28,098 nt of DNA from a virus, in IMG/VR virus record IMGVR_UViG_3300025789_000120, positions 1 through 28,098 of that record; one strand, given 5' to 3'. Positions 3,756-28,098 of this stretch are shown one piece after another (the stretch's first letter is position 1; each line of letters starts with the position of its first letter). The position numbers and the translations under genes are program-made. The notes beneath the pieces were generated by a model. That model did no database searches. It was not told the DNA's origin and saw nothing but the letters and a program-made list of their open reading frames with translations.

Positions 3756-4394
3756 ATGACTATTTACAAACTCTATGTCAAAACCCATAATAAAACTGGG
3801 TTAAAATATCTCGGCAAAACTACAGCAAAAGATCCTCATAAGTATACAGGATCTGGTTTGTACTGGAAACGCCATCTCGAAACACATGGTAAAGATTATA
3901 CTACAGAAATACTTCGAGAATGTCAAAATTCATTCGATGCTAAATCCTGGGGAATGTATTATAGCAACCTCTGGAACATAGTTGAAAGTAGTGAGTGGGC
4001 TAATCTTAAACCTGAGGCAGGAGACGGAAATGATCCCGAAACTGCTCGTAAAATAAATCAGAAGCGAATAAGCGAAGGCACCCATAACTGGCAAAATAGT
4101 GAAACAGCAAGTCAACGAGCAAATATTAGATTAGCAAATAATAACCATCATTTCTTAAACAAAGAATGGGCTCGCGAAAAAGAACTTAACAAGGTAAAGA
4201 ATGGAACTCATCCGTTCCTCGGGGGAGAAGTTCAACATAAATCTAATATAGAAAGATTGTCTAAAGGAACACATAACTTTCAAGGATCAAACAACCCAAA
4301 CAATATAAAAATAACTTGTCCTCATTGCGGTAAGATAGGAGGTAAACCTAATATGATTAACCATCACTTTGATAAGTGTAAACTTAAACCATAA
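3756..4394 (+). CDS. GIY-YIG-like homing endonuclease with NUMOD3-type repeats
   Basis: A 212-residue protein. Residues 4-22 (YKLYVKTHNKTGLKYLGKT) are a divergent GIY-YIG core, in which the usual GIY and YIG tripeptides read KLY and KYLG. It is followed by the typical K-Y-x-G-S-G-x-Y-W-K-R-H-L segment (29-41). Three short repeats of the NUMOD3 kind follow (EGTHNWQ, NGTHPFLG, KGTHNFQG), which bind DNA in such enzymes. The C-terminus carries a CPHCG...H-H-x-x-x-x-C zinc finger (188-207). These are free-standing selfish endonucleases of phages. The ribosome site is AAAGGAAAC. A strong terminator follows directly, as expected of an inserted cassette. Confidence 0.8.
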   Translation: MTIYKLYVKTHNKTGLKYLGKTTAKDPHKYTGSGLYWKRHLETHGKDYTTEILRECQNSFDAKSWGMYYSNLWNIVESSEWANLKPEAGDGNDPETARKINQKRISEGTHNWQNSETASQRANIRLANNNHHFLNKEWAREKELNKVKNGTHPFLGGEVQHKSNIERLSKGTHNFQGSNNPNNIKITCPHCGKIGGKPNMINHHFDKCKLKP

Positions 4395-14088: not shown

Positions 14089-16419
14089 ATGATCACAGTG
14101 GTCAAACGTAATGGGGAGAAGGTTCCTTTGGACATCTCCAAAATACAGAGACAAGTAGCCCATGCATGTAACGGGATTGACGGAGTTAGTCCTAGCATGG
14201 TAGAAATTAAAGCACAAATAGAACTACACGATGGCATGACCACAAAGACAATAGATGAACTATTGTTAAAAGCCATGGTAGATTTGATTGATGAAACAGA
14301 AAATCCAGAAATCAATAATGTAAACTATCAATACGTAGCTGGACGTCAGCGTGTTAGTATGTTGCGTAAAGAAGTTTATGGTAGTTATACTCCTCCTAAA
14401 CTCTACGACATTGTTAAACGTAATGTAGAACTGGGTATGTATACCTCTGAACTTTTAGATTGGTATACAGAAGATGAATGGAACATTATTGATTTGTTTA
14501 TCGATCATGCCAAGGACGAAAGCTATACCTATGCTGCCATTGCCCAACTATGTGAAAAGTATCTAGTGCAAAATCGTGCCACTAATACTATCTATGAAAC
14601 CCCGCAAGTTCGTTATGCTGTGGCATCTGCTACTGCTTTCCATGGTGAACCCCAAGACAAGAGATTAAAATATGTTAAAGAATACTATGAATGTGCCAGC
14701 GATGGCCACTTTACCCTTGCTACACCAGTATTGGCTGGGCTGGGCACTACCACTAAGCAGTTTTCAAGTTGCGTGCTTATCAGTAGCGATGACACCCTGG
14801 ACAGTATATTTGCCGCAGGCGAAATGATGGCCAAATATGCTTCAAAACGAGCTGGAATCGGCCTGGAAATCGGCCGAATTCGCCCGTTAGGAGCACCAAT
14901 TCGCAATGGAGAAATCAAGCATACGGGTTTGATACCATTCTTGAAGAAATGGTTCGCAGATCTACGTAGTTGCTCACAAGGCGGTATTCGAAACGCCAGT
15001 TGTACAGTTACATTTCCGTTGTGGCATTATCAGTTTGAAGATCTTATTGTATTGAAAAACAATCAAGGTACAGACGAAACTCGTGTTCGTCAAATGGACT
15101 ATAGCGTAGTTGTTAATAAGATGTTTTGGAATCGTTACAAGAACAAACAAACCATTACCTTGTTTGATCCTGCCGAAGTTCCAGACTTGTACATGGCTTA
15201 CTATCGTAGCACCGAAGAGTTTGAACAACTATACTTAAACTATGAAAAGCATCCGACAATTAAAAAGAAAGTCGTATCGGCAGATGAGATTTTCAAAAAT
15301 CAGATCCTTAAAGAAAGGACTGATACGGGGCGCATATATCTTGTCAATGTCGACAACGTCATTGCCCAAGGCCCGTTTGATACGACAACAGATCCTATAT
15401 ATCAATCAAATCTATGCCAAGAAATACTTTTACCCACCCGTCCTTTCCAGAGAATTGAAGATCCAGAGGGACGAATTGCTCTTTGCACTCTTGGCAGCAT
15501 CAACTGGGGTGCCTTCCGTAACCCTCAGGAAATGAGAAAAGCCTGTCGTGTACTAGTACGCAGTCTGAGCAACCTGCTGAACTATCAAGATTTCTTGAGC
15601 GTACAAAGTAAACTAGCAAATGAAGATTTTGAACCCCTGGGTGTTGGTATTACTAATTTGGCTTTTTGGCATGCCCGTCGTAGTTACAAATATGGCACAG
15701 CAGAAGCTCTAGCAGAAGTCAAACGCTGGATGGAACATCAAGCATACTACCTTACCGAGACTAGTGTAGAACTTGCCCAAGAAAGAGGGGCCTGTAAGCG
15801 TAGCGAATACACTTACTACGGTAAGGGAGTATTCCCTTGGGAACGTCGTAGCGCAGGTGTTGATGAACTAACAGACTTCACACCTAGTATGGATTGGGAA
15901 CCGTTGCGTGAACGTATGAAAACATATGGTATTCGTAATGCTACCTTAATGGCAGTGGCTCCGGTGGAGTCCAGTAGCGTTGTATTAAACTCTACTAATG
16001 GTATTGAGATGCCCATGGAGTTGATCAGTGTTAAGGAATCCAAAGCAGGTTCATTCGTGCAAGTAGTTCCTGACTATCGTAGATTAAAGAACCGCTATCA
16101 ACTGATGTGGGACCAAACCGATTGTGTTGACTATTTGAAAACCAGTGCTGTGTTAGCCGCTTATATTGACCAAAGTCTAAGCACAAATACATTCTATAAT
16201 CCAGCACACTTTAAGGACGGTAAAGTTCCTGGCACACTGATTGCTAAGAATCTAATGCTGGCCAGTAAGTGGGGATTGAAGACCATGTACTATTCATTGA
16301 TCAATAAAGTAGGTGCAAAGACTTCTTTAAATACTCAAAGTGATAGATTAGTGCCAGCTGAACCTGTTACAGTATATGCTGAACTGGAAGATGATTCTTG
16401 CGAAGCCTGCAAGTTGTAA
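14089..16419 (+). CDS. nrdA: Ribonucleotide reductase class Ia, large subunit
   Basis: A 776-residue NrdA that reduces ribonucleoside diphosphates to deoxy forms for phage DNA synthesis. Residues 1-90 are an ATP-cone (VVKRNGEKVPLDISKIQ). All expected catalytic residues are visible: C228 (FSSCVLISS) and C466 (ALCTLGSINW) as the redox pair; C443 as the radical cysteine with N441 and E445 (SNLCQEI); Y734 and Y735 (MYYSLI) in the radical path; and the C-terminal C771/C774 pair (CEAC) that is re-reduced by a glutaredoxin. Length fits E. coli and T4 enzymes. It heads an operon with nrdB and glutaredoxin. A weak late-like box (GGTAAATA) lies at 14041. No intron or intein is seen. Confidence 0.97.
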   Translation: MITVVKRNGEKVPLDISKIQRQVAHACNGIDGVSPSMVEIKAQIELHDGMTTKTIDELLLKAMVDLIDETENPEINNVNYQYVAGRQRVSMLRKEVYGSYTPPKLYDIVKRNVELGMYTSELLDWYTEDEWNIIDLFIDHAKDESYTYAAIAQLCEKYLVQNRATNTIYETPQVRYAVASATAFHGEPQDKRLKYVKEYYECASDGHFTLATPVLAGLGTTTKQFSSCVLISSDDTLDSIFAAGEMMAKYASKRAGIGLEIGRIRPLGAPIRNGEIKHTGLIPFLKKWFADLRSCSQGGIRNASCTVTFPLWHYQFEDLIVLKNNQGTDETRVRQMDYSVVVNKMFWNRYKNKQTITLFDPAEVPDLYMAYYRSTEEFEQLYLNYEKHPTIKKKVVSADEIFKNQILKERTDTGRIYLVNVDNVIAQGPFDTTTDPIYQSNLCQEILLPTRPFQRIEDPEGRIALCTLGSINWGAFRNPQEMRKACRVLVRSLSNLLNYQDFLSVQSKLANEDFEPLGVGITNLAFWHARRSYKYGTAEALAEVKRWMEHQAYYLTETSVELAQERGACKRSEYTYYGKGVFPWERRSAGVDELTDFTPSMDWEPLRERMKTYGIRNATLMAVAPVESSSVVLNSTNGIEMPMELISVKESKAGSFVQVVPDYRRLKNRYQLMWDQTDCVDYLKTSAVLAAYIDQSLSTNTFYNPAHFKDGKVPGTLIAKNLMLASKWGLKTMYYSLINKVGAKTSLNTQSDRLVPAEPVTVYAELEDDSCEACKL

Positions 16420-16422
16420 ACT

Positions 16423-16468
16423 ATAAGTTTTCTGCAAACTATGATAAATAGTTTTGCAGAAAACTTAT
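16423..16468 (+). promoter_or_regulatory. Hairpin with late promoter in its loop, at the start of the HNH gene
   Basis: ATAAGTTTTCTGCAAACTAT (16423-16442), loop GATAA, then the complementary arm (16448-16468) with one bulged base: about 20 pairs. The arm ends directly at the ATG (16469). The late box GATAAATA (16443-16450) spans the loop and the first bases of the right arm. Late transcripts would start inside the right arm and lack the left one. This is the same logic as T4 I-TevI, where a hairpin blocks translation of early messages. Confidence 0.75.
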
Positions 16469-17143
16469 ATGAATTACCAAAAGATATATGATAATATAGT
16501 AAGGAGAGGACAGCATAGAATATTAGAAGGATATAGTGAAAAGCATCATATTGTTCCGAGATGCCTTGGAGGAACAGATGACGTAACTAACTTAGTATCG
16601 CTAACACCAGAAGAACATTATTTGTGTCATCTTCTATTAGTTAAAATACATCCTAACAATATACGTCTAGTCAAAGCCGCTATGTTTATGGTATCAGCAA
16701 ACAAAGATCAGCAACGCAACAACAAAGTATATGGGTGGTTGAAACGGCAGTATTCTGAATATATGCAGGGACCAAATAATCCTTCAAAATTAAACGGTCC
16801 ATGGAATAAAGGCGTTACAGGATATAAAACTAATGTAATTTTTTCAGAAGATACTATAAAACAAATTTCTGAAAGAATGAAAAGTAACAACCCGTGTGCA
16901 GGTGTTAAGCCATGGAATCATCCCAGAGCAACAGATTACTCTAAATCTGTTTGGAAACAAGCAGGTACGATTTATCAAGTATGGACAGAAAATAGCAAGC
17001 CATCTTATTGTAAGTTATATACATTAGTGAACAATAAATGTTATACTAATGATTCAAAAGTTATCGGTCCTTATATGAATATGGTGAAGTATTTTAGGAA
17101 CGGATGGATTCCTGTAGAAGATAACGAATGGATTAAATTATGA
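16469..17143 (+). CDS. HNH homing endonuclease inserted between nrdA and nrdB (MobE-like position)
   Basis: A 224-residue protein. The HNH core is EKHHIVPRCLGGTDDVTNLVSLTPEEHYLCHLLL: H26/H27, N41, H50 and H54. The N-terminus MNYQKIYDNIVRRGQ is typical of phage HNH enzymes of this class, which is why I start at 16469 and not at the TTG at 16454. The C-terminal part (PWNKGVTGYKT, NNPCAGVKPWNH) resembles NUMOD DNA-binding repeats. T4 carries mobE in the same place. The enzyme probably cuts homing sites in nrdA or nrdB of related phages. No ribosome site is obvious; the start lies beside a long hairpin. Confidence 0.88.
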   Translation: MNYQKIYDNIVRRGQHRILEGYSEKHHIVPRCLGGTDDVTNLVSLTPEEHYLCHLLLVKIHPNNIRLVKAAMFMVSANKDQQRNNKVYGWLKRQYSEYMQGPNNPSKLNGPWNKGVTGYKTNVIFSEDTIKQISERMKSNNPCAGVKPWNHPRATDYSKSVWKQAGTIYQVWTENSKPSYCKLYTLVNNKCYTNDSKVIGPYMNMVKYFRNGWIPVEDNEWIKL

Positions 17144-23812: not shown

Positions 23813-23994
23813 AACCGCTTCCAGAATATGGATGGGGTACTTTTGCAGAAGAATGGGAAAGAATGAATACACCTGAATTTGAAGAAGAACAAAAACAATG
23901 GAGTAGATATGCTGTCACTTTTACAGCAATACTCGCTGTGGTTGTTTGCATATTAAAATATTATAATTTAATTCCCCCAAATGCGCCAGTATAA
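23809..23994 (+). CDS. Small C-terminally anchored membrane protein
   Basis: A 61-residue frame starting at TTG (23809) that overlaps the upstream stop as TTGA. An ATG at 23863 with GGGAAAG would give a shorter 43-residue form. It has an acidic N-terminal half (GTFAEEWERMNTPEFEEEQKQW) and one membrane helix (AVTFTAILAVVVCILKYYN). The stop overlaps the next start (TAATG). Function unknown. Confidence 0.6.
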   Translation: MKPLPEYGWGTFAEEWERMNTPEFEEEQKQWSRYAVTFTAILAVVVCILKYYNLIPPNAPV

Positions 23995-24194
23995 TGGAAT
24001 CGCATAAAAGAACATTAGCAAGAAGTATCACATATAGACTTAGTGCTTGGATGTTGACAATTTTGTTATCTTATATGTATACAGGCAATCTTTCAGAATC
24101 AACTGGATTTAGTACTTTCCTACATTTGATTCTTTCATTAGATTATTATATTCATGAAAGAATTTGGATGAAGATTAGTTGGGGTAAGATTTGA
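23994..24194 (+). CDS. DUF2061 small membrane protein
   Basis: A 66-residue protein that matches DUF2061: E-(S/T)-H-K-R-(T/S)-L at the start, R-L-S-A-W-M-L-T-I-L-L-S-Y, T-G-(N/S)-L-S, then D-Y-Y-I-H-E-R-I-W-x-K-I-S-W-G at the end. DUF2061 proteins are small membrane proteins of bacteria and also occur in large aquatic phages. Function unknown. It is coupled to the previous gene (TAATG). A sigma70-like promoter (24054-24083) lies inside it and could serve the tmRNA. Confidence 0.85.
   Translation: MESHKRTLARSITYRLSAWMLTILLSYMYTGNLSESTGFSTFLHLILSLDYYIHERIWMKISWGKI
24054..24083 (+). promoter_or_regulatory. Candidate sigma70 promoter upstream of the tmRNA
   Basis: TTGACA (24054-24059), an 18-base spacer, TATACA (24078-24083), inside the DUF2061 gene. 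It would give a tmRNA precursor with about 100 extra bases at its 5' end. The good -35 and correct spacing are the only evidence. Confidence 0.45.
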
Positions 24195-24537
24195 GAGTAA
24201 TCTCAATAGTAAGACTGTATGAAGTTGACAGAAAAGGATTCTGGACGCGGGTTCGACTCCCGCCAGGTCCACCATAAACACATGTGGGTTTAAGTCCCAA
24301 GTGGTAGTGTTATAGACACATAGCGGCACAGCCGATACCTTTCAGATTTGAGTGTGTTTATGATGGGCCTGACCTGGTTTTCGACAGGGTCAAGAGTAAT
24401 GAAATGGACAGTCCGGCAATGTAGAAGCCGTTAGGATTGGGGTGACCCGATCGAAGACACGCAAAAAGTAATCGCAAACGATTCACAATATTCCATGGCC
24501 GCTTGAGCCAAGGTGAGGTAACTATACCTTATTACCC
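24191..24537 (+). ncRNA. ssrA: Circularly permuted (two-piece) tmRNA, tag ANDSQYSMAA
   Basis: Here the 3' part of tmRNA lies upstream of the 5' part. The acceptor piece ends at 24274 with the T arm GCGGG-TTCGACT-CCCGC (24247-24263), CAGGTCC (24264-24270), A and an encoded CCA. The coding piece starts at 24365 with GGGCCTG, which pairs with CAGGTCC over all 7 positions (one G-U), followed by the conserved CTGG...TTCGAC. P2 is also formed between the pieces (GTCAA/TTGAC, ACAGTC/GACTGT). The tag frame (24474-24506) is GCA AAC GAT TCA CAA TAT TCC ATG GCC GCT TGA, preceded by GTAATC. One pseudoknot after the tag is visible (AAGGT/ACCTT with GGTAA/TTACC). Permuted tmRNAs are known from alphaproteobacteria, some cyanobacteria and some betaproteobacteria. 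The 5' boundary is approximate: a TTGAGA-GTAA-TCTCAA hairpin begins at 24191. Confidence 0.93.
24275..24364 (+). other. Intervening segment of the permuted tmRNA, removed on maturation
   Basis: It joins the two mature ends. TAAACACA (24275-24282) is exactly complementary to TGTGTTTA (24353-24360), so the acceptor stem continues almost directly into a helix that closes the loop. Inside lies a T-arm look-alike (TGGG-TTTAAGT-CCCA). Processing at the CCA (24274) and before 24365 would produce the two pieces. Confidence 0.8.
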
Positions 24538-24546
24538 AAAATAGTA

Positions 24547-24575
24547 GAAAGGGCCTTGACGGGCCCTTTCTTTTT
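24547..24575 (+). terminator. Rho-independent terminator of the tmRNA
   Basis: GAAAGGGCC (24547-24555), 6-base loop, GGCCCTTTC (24562-24570), TTTTT. Nine perfect pairs, ten bases after the last pseudoknot. Confidence 0.92.
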
Positions 24576-24584: not shown

Positions 24585-24611
24585 AACTTTACTTTAACAA
24601 ACAAGGTTCTT

Positions 24612-25313
24612 ATGAAAAAGACTCTTTTAGCAGTGATGTTTGGTATCGCACTATGCGGCGCAGTTAATGCCAAACCCGGCCAAGGTGGGGCTAGTCGTGG
24701 CAGTTTTAGTACTCCATCGAGTGTGCCACATAGTTCCCCTGGCCCTGTTCATCCTATCGCATCTCCTAGCCCACAGAAAGGTAGTTTTAGCGCCGCGCCC
24801 GCTCCTGGTCAAAAAGGTAGTTTTAGTGCCCCTGCACAGACTACTACTCGCACAACCACTACCGCAGTAAATCGAACTTATACAAGTCGCTATGTTAGCC
24901 CCGGTGGCTACTATGGTGGTTGGGGTTATGGTTATCACTATAACAACGGATTGATGACTGGACTAATTATTGGCAGTATGATGCATCCATATGGTACCGT
25001 AATGTACACAGGTCCCGGTGCGTACTACAATAATGCTGTTCTGTATCCCGATGGTCGAGTGGTTAATCAAAATGGTTATTTGGTAGGAACCTATGCCGGC
25101 GGACAGTTCAATCCCGTCCAAAACGGTCCCATGGTAGCGCAACCTGCTCCTGCTGATGCCGGTGCTCAACAACCAGTACAGCCACAACCACAACAACCAC
25201 AGGTTATCTATGTCGAGAAACCTGGACCTACAGCAGTGGAAGTCTTTGGCTATGCCATGGGTGGATTTTTGGTGGTAGTATTGTTAATTGCTTTATTTGG
25301 AATGGTGATTTAA
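24612..25313 (+). CDS. Exported low-complexity protein with C-terminal membrane anchor
   Basis: A 233-residue protein starting at ATG 24612. Residues 1-20 are a signal peptide (MKKTLLAVMFGIALCGAVNA). A Ser/Pro-rich part with three KGSFS/RGSFS repeats follows, then a Thr stretch, a Tyr/Gly-rich part (GGYYGGWGYGYHYNNG), a Pro/Gln part and a final membrane helix (VFGYAMGGFLVVVLLIALFGMVI). It is thus probably a periplasmic protein anchored at its C-terminus. Repeats and the gene's own promoter suggest a surface or envelope role. I do not recognise a family. Confidence 0.75.
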   Translation: MKKTLLAVMFGIALCGAVNAKPGQGGASRGSFSTPSSVPHSSPGPVHPIASPSPQKGSFSAAPAPGQKGSFSAPAQTTTRTTTTAVNRTYTSRYVSPGGYYGGWGYGYHYNNGLMTGLIIGSMMHPYGTVMYTGPGAYYNNAVLYPDGRVVNQNGYLVGTYAGGQFNPVQNGPMVAQPAPADAGAQQPVQPQPQQPQVIYVEKPGPTAVEVFGYAMGGFLVVVLLIALFGMVI

Positions 25314-26038: not shown

Positions 26039-26584
26039 ATGAAAACAATCGGCGATAAACTAGAACATTTCGTAGTTACAGGCGTTAAGCCAGGACAACC
26101 AGAAGATGCTTTCTTCAACATTGATGAAACAAGTTTCCCAGGTAAGTGGAAGATCATTGCTTTCTATCCCAAGGATTTTACATTTGTATGCCCAACTGAA
26201 ATTGTGGCCTATGACAAGTTGAATCAAGACTTCGAAGACCGCGATGCTGTATTGTTGACAGGTTCAACAGATAATGAGTTCTGTAAGATTGCTTGGCAAA
26301 AGAGCCACCCAGACTTGATCAATATCAAACACAATCAATTCGCTGATACACAGCGTGGTGAGTTGAGTTTGGCTGAACAACTTGGTGTATTCTTTGGTCC
26401 AGCAGGTGCGGCACTTCGCGCAACATTCATTGTTGATCCAGACAACACAATCCAACACGTTACCGTCAACAACTTGGATGTAGGTCGTAGCCCAGAAGAA
26501 ACTTTGCGTATTCTTGACGCACTTCAAACTGGTGAACTTTGTGCTTGTAACCGTACCGTTGGTGGCGCAACTCTAGGAGCATAA
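26039..26584 (+). CDS. ahpC: AhpC, three-cysteine peroxiredoxin
   Basis: A 181-residue peroxiredoxin that reduces hydrogen peroxide, organic peroxides and peroxynitrite. The peroxidatic cysteine is C51 in FVCPTE, within the context F-Y-P-K-D-F-T-F. The C-terminus has C168 and C170 (GELCACN), the arrangement of actinobacterial AhpC (C174 and C176), which is recharged by AhpD and not by AhpF. The very similar L-Q-T-x-E-L-C-A-C-N segment supports this. AGGAGG lies 4 bases before the ATG. It is followed after one base by ahpD, so the pair is complete. Confidence 0.95.
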   Translation: MKTIGDKLEHFVVTGVKPGQPEDAFFNIDETSFPGKWKIIAFYPKDFTFVCPTEIVAYDKLNQDFEDRDAVLLTGSTDNEFCKIAWQKSHPDLINIKHNQFADTQRGELSLAEQLGVFFGPAGAALRATFIVDPDNTIQHVTVNNLDVGRSPEETLRILDALQTGELCACNRTVGGATLGA

Positions 26585-26585
26585 T

Positions 26586-27092
26586 ATGGCATTCATTGAT
26601 TCAGTAAAAGGCGCATTGCCTGACTATGCTAAAGATGCTCGTTTGAACATTGATGCTGTATTGCTTCGTAGCACATTGGACAAGGATGTGGCTATGGGCT
26701 GTGCTGTAGCCGCTTTGGCTGCTACCGGCAACGGTAAGTTATTAGCTGTATTGTTAGCAGATGCTCCTGTATTTGCTGAGTCAGCAATGACTGCCGCAAG
26801 CATTATGGCAATGACAAACAGTTGGTACCCATATGTTGAAATGGCCGATGACGCAAACTTAACGGGTTTGCCTGCCCAACTGCGTATGAACGCCATCGCT
26901 ACACACGGCGGCACAACTAAGAGCAATTTTGAAGCATTTAGTTTGGCCGCTAGTATTGTTGGAAAATGTGAGTTCTGCGTTAAAGCACACTACGAAACAT
27001 TGAAGAAGGAAGGCTACTCTGTAGAAAACCTTCGTGACATTGGTCGTATTGCCGCAGTGATTAACAGCGTGGCTAAAGTATTGAATAGTTAA
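26586..27092 (+). CDS. ahpD: AhpD, CxxC alkylhydroperoxidase-type reductase of AhpC
   Basis: A 168-residue all-helical AhpD (carboxymuconolactone decarboxylase-like fold). The active site is C128-E-F-C131 with H135 (CEFCVKAH) and E116, equal to E118, C130, C133 and H137 of the mycobacterial protein. It passes electrons to AhpC and can itself reduce peroxides; in mycobacteria it takes them from dihydrolipoamide via Lpd and SucB. Whether the host has that link is not visible here. Its stop overlaps, tail to tail, the stop of the minus-strand gene by 4 bases. Confidence 0.93.
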   Translation: MAFIDSVKGALPDYAKDARLNIDAVLLRSTLDKDVAMGCAVAALAATGNGKLLAVLLADAPVFAESAMTAASIMAMTNSWYPYVEMADDANLTGLPAQLRMNAIATHGGTTKSNFEAFSLAASIVGKCEFCVKAHYETLKKEGYSVENLRDIGRIAAVINSVAKVLNS

Positions 27093-27917: not shown

Positions 27918-28098
27918 ATGAAGAAATCTCTATTAGTGGCTGCTTTGTTCAGTCTAGCAGGTTTGGCAACTGCCGGCGACAATGTTGAAGTCTATGGCAA
28001 GTTGAATGAATATGTAAATAGTTACAAACTTGGTACTGCAACTGCGGTTACACAAGGTTACAACGATAGCAGCCGTTTCGGTGTCCGAGGATCTGAAG
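27918..28098 (+). CDS. Gram-negative trimeric porin (partial, N-terminus only)
   Basis: The first 60 residues are visible. Residues 1-19 are a signal peptide (MKKSLLVAALFSLAGLATA, cut after ATA). The start of the barrel is DNVEVYGKLNEYVNSYK, followed by DSSRFGVRGSE. Both match the 'V-x-x-Y-G-x-(V/L)-(D/N)-x-x-(V/I)' and 'S-R-(F/W)-G-(V/L)-(R/K)-G-(S/T)-E' signatures of betaproteobacterial porins. It would act as an outer-membrane channel. The remainder lies beyond the window. If it is a phage gene, its function may be to replace or mask host surface proteins. Confidence 0.85.
   Translation, partial: MKKSLLVAALFSLAGLATAGDNVEVYGKLNEYVNSYKLGTATAVTQGYNDSSRFGVRGSE

Follow-up and report, generated by a model that had tools for sequence, protein, structure and literature searches.

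Permuted tmRNA gene and its surroundings

The window (the whole stretch of DNA analysed, a complete virus record of 28,098 bases) contains an intact circularly permuted (two-piece) tmRNA gene at positions 24213–24573, detected with both ARAGORN and Rfam. ARAGORN assigned the gene to its permuted type, "tmRNA*", with the tag ANDSQYSMAA, and found no further tRNA or tmRNA in the 28,098 bases. In cmscan searches, the tmRNA_permuted model (RF04321) matched positions 24213–24506 with 105 bits (cut-off 47, E = 8.6e-20; model positions 1–213 of 213), and the beta_tmRNA model (RF01850) matched positions 24162–24573 with 95.3 bits (cut-off 84, E = 5.6e-28; model positions 1–331 of 331). An earlier note, made from the letters of the sequence, had claimed a circularly permuted tmRNA here and proposed a covariance search as a check; the permuted ARAGORN call and the two full-length Rfam matches above cut-off confirm that claim. 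The features of the locus are as follows.

23994–24194, + strand: upstream neighbour, 66-aa DUF2061 protein
24213–24274, + strand: acceptor piece, first in the precursor, with distal P2 strand, P2 strand, T arm and acceptor 3' strand (ARAGORN, Rfam RF04321)
24236–24274, + strand: 3' tRNA domain (ARAGORN)
24272–24274, + strand: encoded CCA (ARAGORN)
24275–24364, + strand: intervening segment of 90 nt, expected to be absent from the mature RNA (ARAGORN, fold)
24365–24473, + strand: 5' part of the coding piece, with acceptor 5' strand, D-like loop, P2 strand, first pseudoknot region and resume context AGTAATC (Rfam, ARAGORN)
24474–24506, + strand: tag reading frame ANDSQYSMAA with stop TGA (ARAGORN)
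24507–24545, + strand: 3' part of the coding piece, the downstream portion of the beta_tmRNA model (Rfam RF01850)
24546–24575, + strand: intrinsic terminator hairpin (24546–24571) with T tail (fold z −4.6)
24609–25313, + strand: downstream neighbour, 234-aa protein with no Pfam or PHROG match
26039–26584, + strand: phage AhpC (peroxiredoxin; Pfam)
26586–27092, + strand: AhpD-like protein, carboxymuconolactone decarboxylase family (Pfam)
27918–28097, + strand: porin, truncated at the window end (complete copy in viral record L003, 11880–12833)
L003 15349–16587 = G876 88208–89446, + strand: clpX, past the porin in two further viral records

The order of the pieces is permuted, the acceptor 3' half (24236–24274) preceding the 5' half (24365–24392) with 90 nt between them. 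The upstream piece carries the T arm (GCGGG-TTCGACT-CCCGC) and the acceptor 3' strand CAGGTCC, followed by an encoded ACCA. This strand forms seven of seven pairs with the acceptor 5' strand GGGCCTG, including G3-U70, next to the discriminator A73. The P2 strands CAGGGTC (24385–24391) and GATTCTG (24237–24243) also form seven of seven pairs, two of them G-U (ARAGORN bracket), and the Rfam alignment adds a distal 5-pair helix between GACTG (24213–24217) and CAGTC (24409–24413). The tag frame reads GCA AAC GAT TCA CAA TAT TCC ATG GCC GCT TGA, with GCA as the resume codon. An 11-pair helix (24273–24283 with 24352–24362), which includes the last two CCA bases, closes the intervening segment, whose fold has a z-score of −2.8, with equal stability in 1 of 200 shuffles. 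All parts that the earlier note had described were therefore present: the T arm and CCA end upstream, the acceptor 5' strand, tag and pseudoknot downstream, the acceptor and P2 pairings between the pieces, and the closing helix.

The acceptor was compared across 205 unique phage permuted tmRNAs, a collection that was shaped by our search patterns and includes cultured phages and some uncertain calls whose tags look odd. Positions 4, 5, and 6 of the acceptor covary with pairing retained, and 204 of the 205 genes have G-U as pair 3; because ARAGORN favors paired acceptors, this covariation is support rather than an independent test. A scan for sigma-70-type promoters found none upstream of the tmRNA, its single match lying past the gene (2.6 expected by shuffling), and no riboswitch was among the Rfam matches in the window. 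The late-promoter motif TATAAATA was dropped as a candidate, with six occurrences in the window versus 3.8 expected and none close to the tmRNA.

Phage setting, descent, and distribution of the permuted form

The permuted tmRNA gene belongs to the phage and not to a host. Viral record G876 (99,019 bases) holds the entire window at 99.73% identity (56822–84919), with the tmRNA at 81003–81418, and over 12,060 bases the window is 100% identical to viral record L003. Ten of the 19 G876 proteins scanned (one cut at the end of the stretch) had PHROG matches. These include, on the left side of the tmRNA, a tail fiber, tail proteins, a DNA ligase, and a virion structural protein and, on its right side, a member of a metallo-phosphoesterase family. 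The window itself encodes NrdA, NrdB, and a phage exonuclease, and beyond the porin L003 continues with clpX, a 2OG-Fe(II) oxygenase gene, and a 3'-5' exoribonuclease-like gene. The placement on a phage proposed in the earlier note was thus upheld, the whole window lying inside a 99-kb viral record in which genes of phage families lie to either side. The T4-like nature suggested for this phage is plausible, its NrdA being closest to those of Xanthomonas phage X1 and Menderavirus phages; no T4-type capsid, sheath, portal, or terminase was named among the 19 proteins scanned, and the 99-kb record is a fragment. Elsewhere in the window, an open reading frame at 3756–4394 matched an intron-like DNA endonuclease family, and a second one at 16454–17143, beside nrdA, has the look of an HNH-type homing endonuclease, as judged by eye. 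At its 3' end, nrdA has a long inverted repeat (16419–16474), which gave a sub-threshold miRNA-precursor match and is possibly a terminator.

The phage also carries an AhpC–AhpD pair (26039–27092), and ahpC is frequent in viral contigs, with relatives in at least 597 viral stretches. The best 80 of these shared 82–100% identity with the window AhpC, which marks the right side of the window as viral; the best 80 of 341 bacterial relatives shared 65–71%. Because the best listed bacterial AhpC reached only 71%, we claim no host genus. In the cultured-phage collection, 18 records matched, every one below 60% identity.

The closest cultured NrdA was that of Xanthomonas phage X1 (60%), followed by those of Menderavirus phages of Stenotrophomonas (54–55%). 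Like the window phage, X1 and three phages of Stenotrophomonas (Mendera, Bhz51, and DLP_6) have a permuted tmRNA according to ARAGORN; in X1, Mendera, and Bhz51 it is found no more than 3 kb upstream of nrdA. The three that were scanned (X1, Mendera, and DLP_6) passed the tmRNA_permuted cut-off, Mendera and DLP_6 also passed that of beta_tmRNA, and in the records of all three the tmRNA is unannotated at those sites. These phages differ from the window phage in their tags (VAANDDSYTVRIAA, ANDDSFAPMAIAA, VAANDADYSVARYA) and in having gammaproteobacterial hosts. The X1 tmRNA (L627, 3951–4401) has the tag VAANDADYSVARYA, which ends in RYA and not in Ala-Ala. Gammaproteobacteria typically have a one-piece tmRNA; therefore, the permuted form may be retained by phages whichever form their host has.

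In a phylogenetic tree of 74 tmRNAs (180 columns), the window gene was placed deep among phage genes, adjoining viral sequence L004. The phage clade had a support of 0.78, and a node with 0.99 support unites it with a host-gene group including that of Oligella; the tmRNAs of the viral sequences L423 and L444, of Pelagibacter phage Mosig, and of the cultured Xanthomonadaceae phages fell outside the phage clade. Judging from the sequences, a tmRNA lineage maintained by phages fits better than a recent capture, with modest support in the tree. The permuted genes of Oligella urethralis (L213) and an Alcaligenaceae bacterium (L214) share with the window gene the RF01850 model, the piece order, and a 10-residue tag of the AND.. 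type; however, their intervening segments are 33 and 42 nt long versus 90 nt in the window, and the window gene differs in its tag ending SMAA and its viral genome context.

The tmRNAs of mycobacteriophages and Bacillus phage G are not known to be permuted. These one-piece tmRNAs are phage-borne like that of the window (accessible part of PMC4131195). The earlier note had framed phage tmRNAs as one-piece only, which is out of date: a two-piece tmRNA was reported in 2022 in the methylophage Melnitz, and the accessible part of the same paper counts 133 unique phage tmRNA structures, of which 53 are suggested to be two-piece, 50 of these coming from marine or aquatic samples, and proposes roles in the upkeep of hijacked machinery or the recycling of host proteins (PMC9004378). 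The two-piece phage tmRNA is therefore already known, and the window adds another such gene. Melnitz and Mosig (L002) resemble the window in carrying a phage-borne, permuted gene, and the Mosig tag also ends in Ala-Ala, but this tag has nine residues (GEDNFALAA versus ANDSQYSMAA). In the text available, the Melnitz gene is said to resemble alphaproteobacterial genes more closely and to be controlled by a glutamine riboswitch (PMC9004378), whereas the window gene fits the betaproteobacterial model.

The permuted form is much commoner in the sampled AhpC-bearing viruses than in the sampled Burkholderiales genomes. ARAGORN found a permuted tmRNA in 33 of 80 viral AhpC loci (the best 80 of at least 597), in all 33 on the same strand, and a one-piece tmRNA in none of the 80. 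When whole records were scanned for 50 of these 80 loci, mostly the longer ones, 35 passed the tmRNA_permuted cut-off, a share that leans high because four short records (L023, L024, L028, and L054) had been picked as tmRNA-positive. Among Burkholderiales, the permuted form was found in 16 of 399 genomes; in the 23 named genomes, it occurred in two, with 19 one-piece genes and two genomes without a match. In a sample of the gammaproteobacterial class, which in GTDB takes in Burkholderiales, 4 of 369 genomes were above the cut-off, and ARAGORN classified one of these as permuted and three as one-piece. For the bacterial loci L217, L218, L227, L258, and L262, a second, overlapping permuted ARAGORN call with an implausible tag was set aside, as was one odd permuted call in L276.

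We also searched IMG/VR with two tag-shaped DNA patterns, each of which retrieved at least 120 stretches, and analyzed 117 loci per pattern. ARAGORN found permuted tmRNAs in 104 of 117 loci for the long-tag pattern and 85 of 117 for the short-tag pattern, with none in the remaining loci and no one-piece form; because the patterns select for a permuted context, these counts do not show how frequent one-piece forms are among viruses. The DNA of the window tag itself occurred in five viral stretches, four of which had an ARAGORN tmRNA; the fifth stops at the end of its contig, two bases after the match.

Phage tags, ClpX, and the proteins of trans-translation

Tags in the 205 unique phage permuted tmRNAs were either 9–15 residues (122 genes) or 22–33 residues (83 genes) long, with none between, and 194 of the 205 end in Ala-Ala. 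In the AhpC-reached set, from which two records were left out, 16 of 26 unique tmRNAs had tags of at least 20 residues. Of 18 distinct permuted genes from bacteria, 17 had tags of 10–12 residues; the exception (L289, from the Burkholderiales sample) has a 28-residue tag, GNQPSNLQVMQQFDVPTPANGDQYLNVA, and chromosomal neighbors that look ordinary by eye. According to the accessible part of the tmRNA database paper, the commonest tag length is 10, and 79 phage sequences are held (PMC11915505).

The long-tag tmRNAs (22–33 residues) were seen in L290–L406 and in L015, L045, L052, L054, L060, L069, and others. Their tags mostly share an N-terminal TF[DE][FY], for which one search pattern selected and which is absent from some long tags of the AhpC set (e.g., L060 and L069), and most keep the Ala-Ala end. 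In the FTGN family, codons 9–18, which lie outside the search pattern, were compared among 18 unique sequences. Residue-changing differences made up 42% of the codon differences versus 79% expected from random single changes, and third positions held 520 differences versus 157 and 132 at the other positions; these sequences are related, so that the events are not independent. By this codon pattern, the FTGN-family tag extension is conserved as protein. From Mollicutes tags, we take Lon to be a candidate reader of the long phage tags. Among the papers listed in literature searches, which included few subscription papers, none dealt with long phage tags.

The window phage encodes a ClpX about 7 kb downstream of the tmRNA, and this protein scored 503.2 bits against TIGR00382 (cut-off 370.75) in both records of the phage (L003 and G876). 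It has a zinc finger (PF06689, 50.2 bits), and Walker A, the pore loops, and RKH were read in the alignment, with VGF replacing IGF in the ClpP-binding loop. All six residues matching E. coli Y153, V154, T199, V202, R228, and H230 are kept in the alignment; in the portion of the structural paper available, these residues contact the ssrA tag (PMC7652416). No ClpP was found in the two records of the window phage (35 and 99 kb, both fragments), and the phage would therefore depend on host ClpP. Among viral records more widely, ClpP-family genes were present in 15 of 30 AhpC-bearing and 12 of 46 clpX-bearing records. Some records carry two ClpP-family genes of different score classes, and the weaker matches may be prohead proteases. 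SmpB was found in 0 of 30 and 0 of 36 viral records sampled (66 in total, many of them fragments).

ClpX relatives are encoded by 187 viral stretches, and a permuted tmRNA lay within 10 kb of clpX in 28 of 80 viral clpX loci, in all 28 on the same strand. We nevertheless rejected a clpX–tmRNA module: AhpC loci behave alike (33 of 80, all same-strand), and a tmRNA above cut-off was present in 3 of 6 ClpX-positive versus 32 of 44 ClpX-negative records, showing no enrichment with clpX. The proximity is thus attributable to a shared neighborhood. None of the 28 clpX-linked tmRNAs, one of which is doubtful (VGPSGPTFA, L469), has a long tag. Among 50 of the 117 long-tag-pattern records, mostly the longest, none had a clpX above cut-off, as compared with 3 of 50 short-tag records (47 reached with the short-tag pattern and 3 chosen because they carry the tag of the window). 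The three positives include G876 of the window phage and G888, which also belongs to the clpX set. An exclusion between tag class and clpX was not adopted, as 0/50 versus 3/50 is by eye not significant and is given as a pattern. In the accessible literature, a Sinorhizobium jumbo phage encodes both a tmRNA and clpX (part of PMC11242549), and phage pf16 is described as encoding SspB, with a tmRNA absent (part of PMC5587285); among the papers listed in our searches, which included few subscription papers, none dealt with a phage tmRNA–clpX pairing.

Proposed function and alternatives

We consider it likely that the locus is a functional betaproteobacterial-type two-piece tmRNA gene of the phage, which acts with host SmpB and tags proteins for ClpXP. 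A single precursor would be transcribed and end at the terminator. Judging from the anatomy of the gene, host tRNA-processing enzymes would excise the 90-nt segment, and the mature products would be an acceptor piece ending in CCA and a second piece with the tag frame, joined by the acceptor and P2 helices. The acceptor would be charged with alanine through G3-U70, and the RNA would use host SmpB, enter stalled ribosomes, and add ANDSQYSMAA. Because this tag retains Ala-Ala at its end, ClpXP is the expected destination of tagged proteins, and the phage ClpX would read the tag and feed host ClpP. The probable benefit is that ribosomes would be freed and fragments recycled during the destruction of host mRNA. 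The phage tmRNA would in this way rescue ribosomes and mark proteins with its own tag, as the earlier note predicted.

Three other explanations were weighed. The earlier note had allowed that the window ends on the right in bacterial DNA and that the tmRNA is the host's own, and AhpC, AhpD, and porin are indeed bacterial families. However, L003 and the 99-kb record run on past the porin with the same tmRNA and phage-family genes, the window AhpC groups with the viral copies rather than the listed bacterial ones, and viral AhpC loci repeatedly carry the permuted gene on the same strand; the viral records spanning the locus refute this explanation in practice, and we give it almost no credence. 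The gene might instead be a recently captured host tmRNA that is decaying and functionless. Short tmRNA 3'-end matches do occur in P2-like phage records, presumably as traces of integration into tmRNA genes. The window gene, by contrast, is complete with its pairings intact, is conserved in many related records, and is placed among phage rather than host genes in the tree, although with modest support, and a decaying passenger is therefore very improbable.

A further possibility is that the phage RNA acts as a decoy, competing for SmpB or alanyl-tRNA synthetase and so blocking host trans-translation. The absence of smpB from the 66 sampled records is compatible with such competition, and the tag-less RNA of mycobacteriophage DS6A, for which such a role has been suggested, provides a precedent (accessible parts of PMC4131195 and PMC11915505). 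A decoy would have no need of a tag, but the tag frame is intact in the window, the Ala-Ala end is kept in nearly all of the unique phage tmRNAs, and the extended tags of relatives are, by their codon differences, conserved as protein. We therefore regard a decoy as improbable, and a functional tagging RNA remains the preferred reading.

Beyond the window, we put forward as a tentative and rather unlikely extension that phage-lineage two-piece tmRNAs with diverged tags give some environmental phages a tag-and-destroy branch of host quality control of their own. Depending on the phage lineage, a phage ClpX, sometimes with ClpP, would read the short Ala-Ala tag, or two-part tags of 22–33 residues with a conserved aromatic TF[DE][FY] stretch would be read by another protease or adaptor. 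If this is true, phage tags would determine what becomes of unfinished proteins during infection. The permuted tmRNA, the phage ClpX and ClpP, and the extended tags make it testable whether phages replace the host tagging signal during infection and what reads the new tag. Given its higher frequency in the sampled AhpC-bearing viruses than in the sampled Burkholderiales and its presence in phages of gammaproteobacteria, the permuted form may be one that phages themselves maintain and spread.
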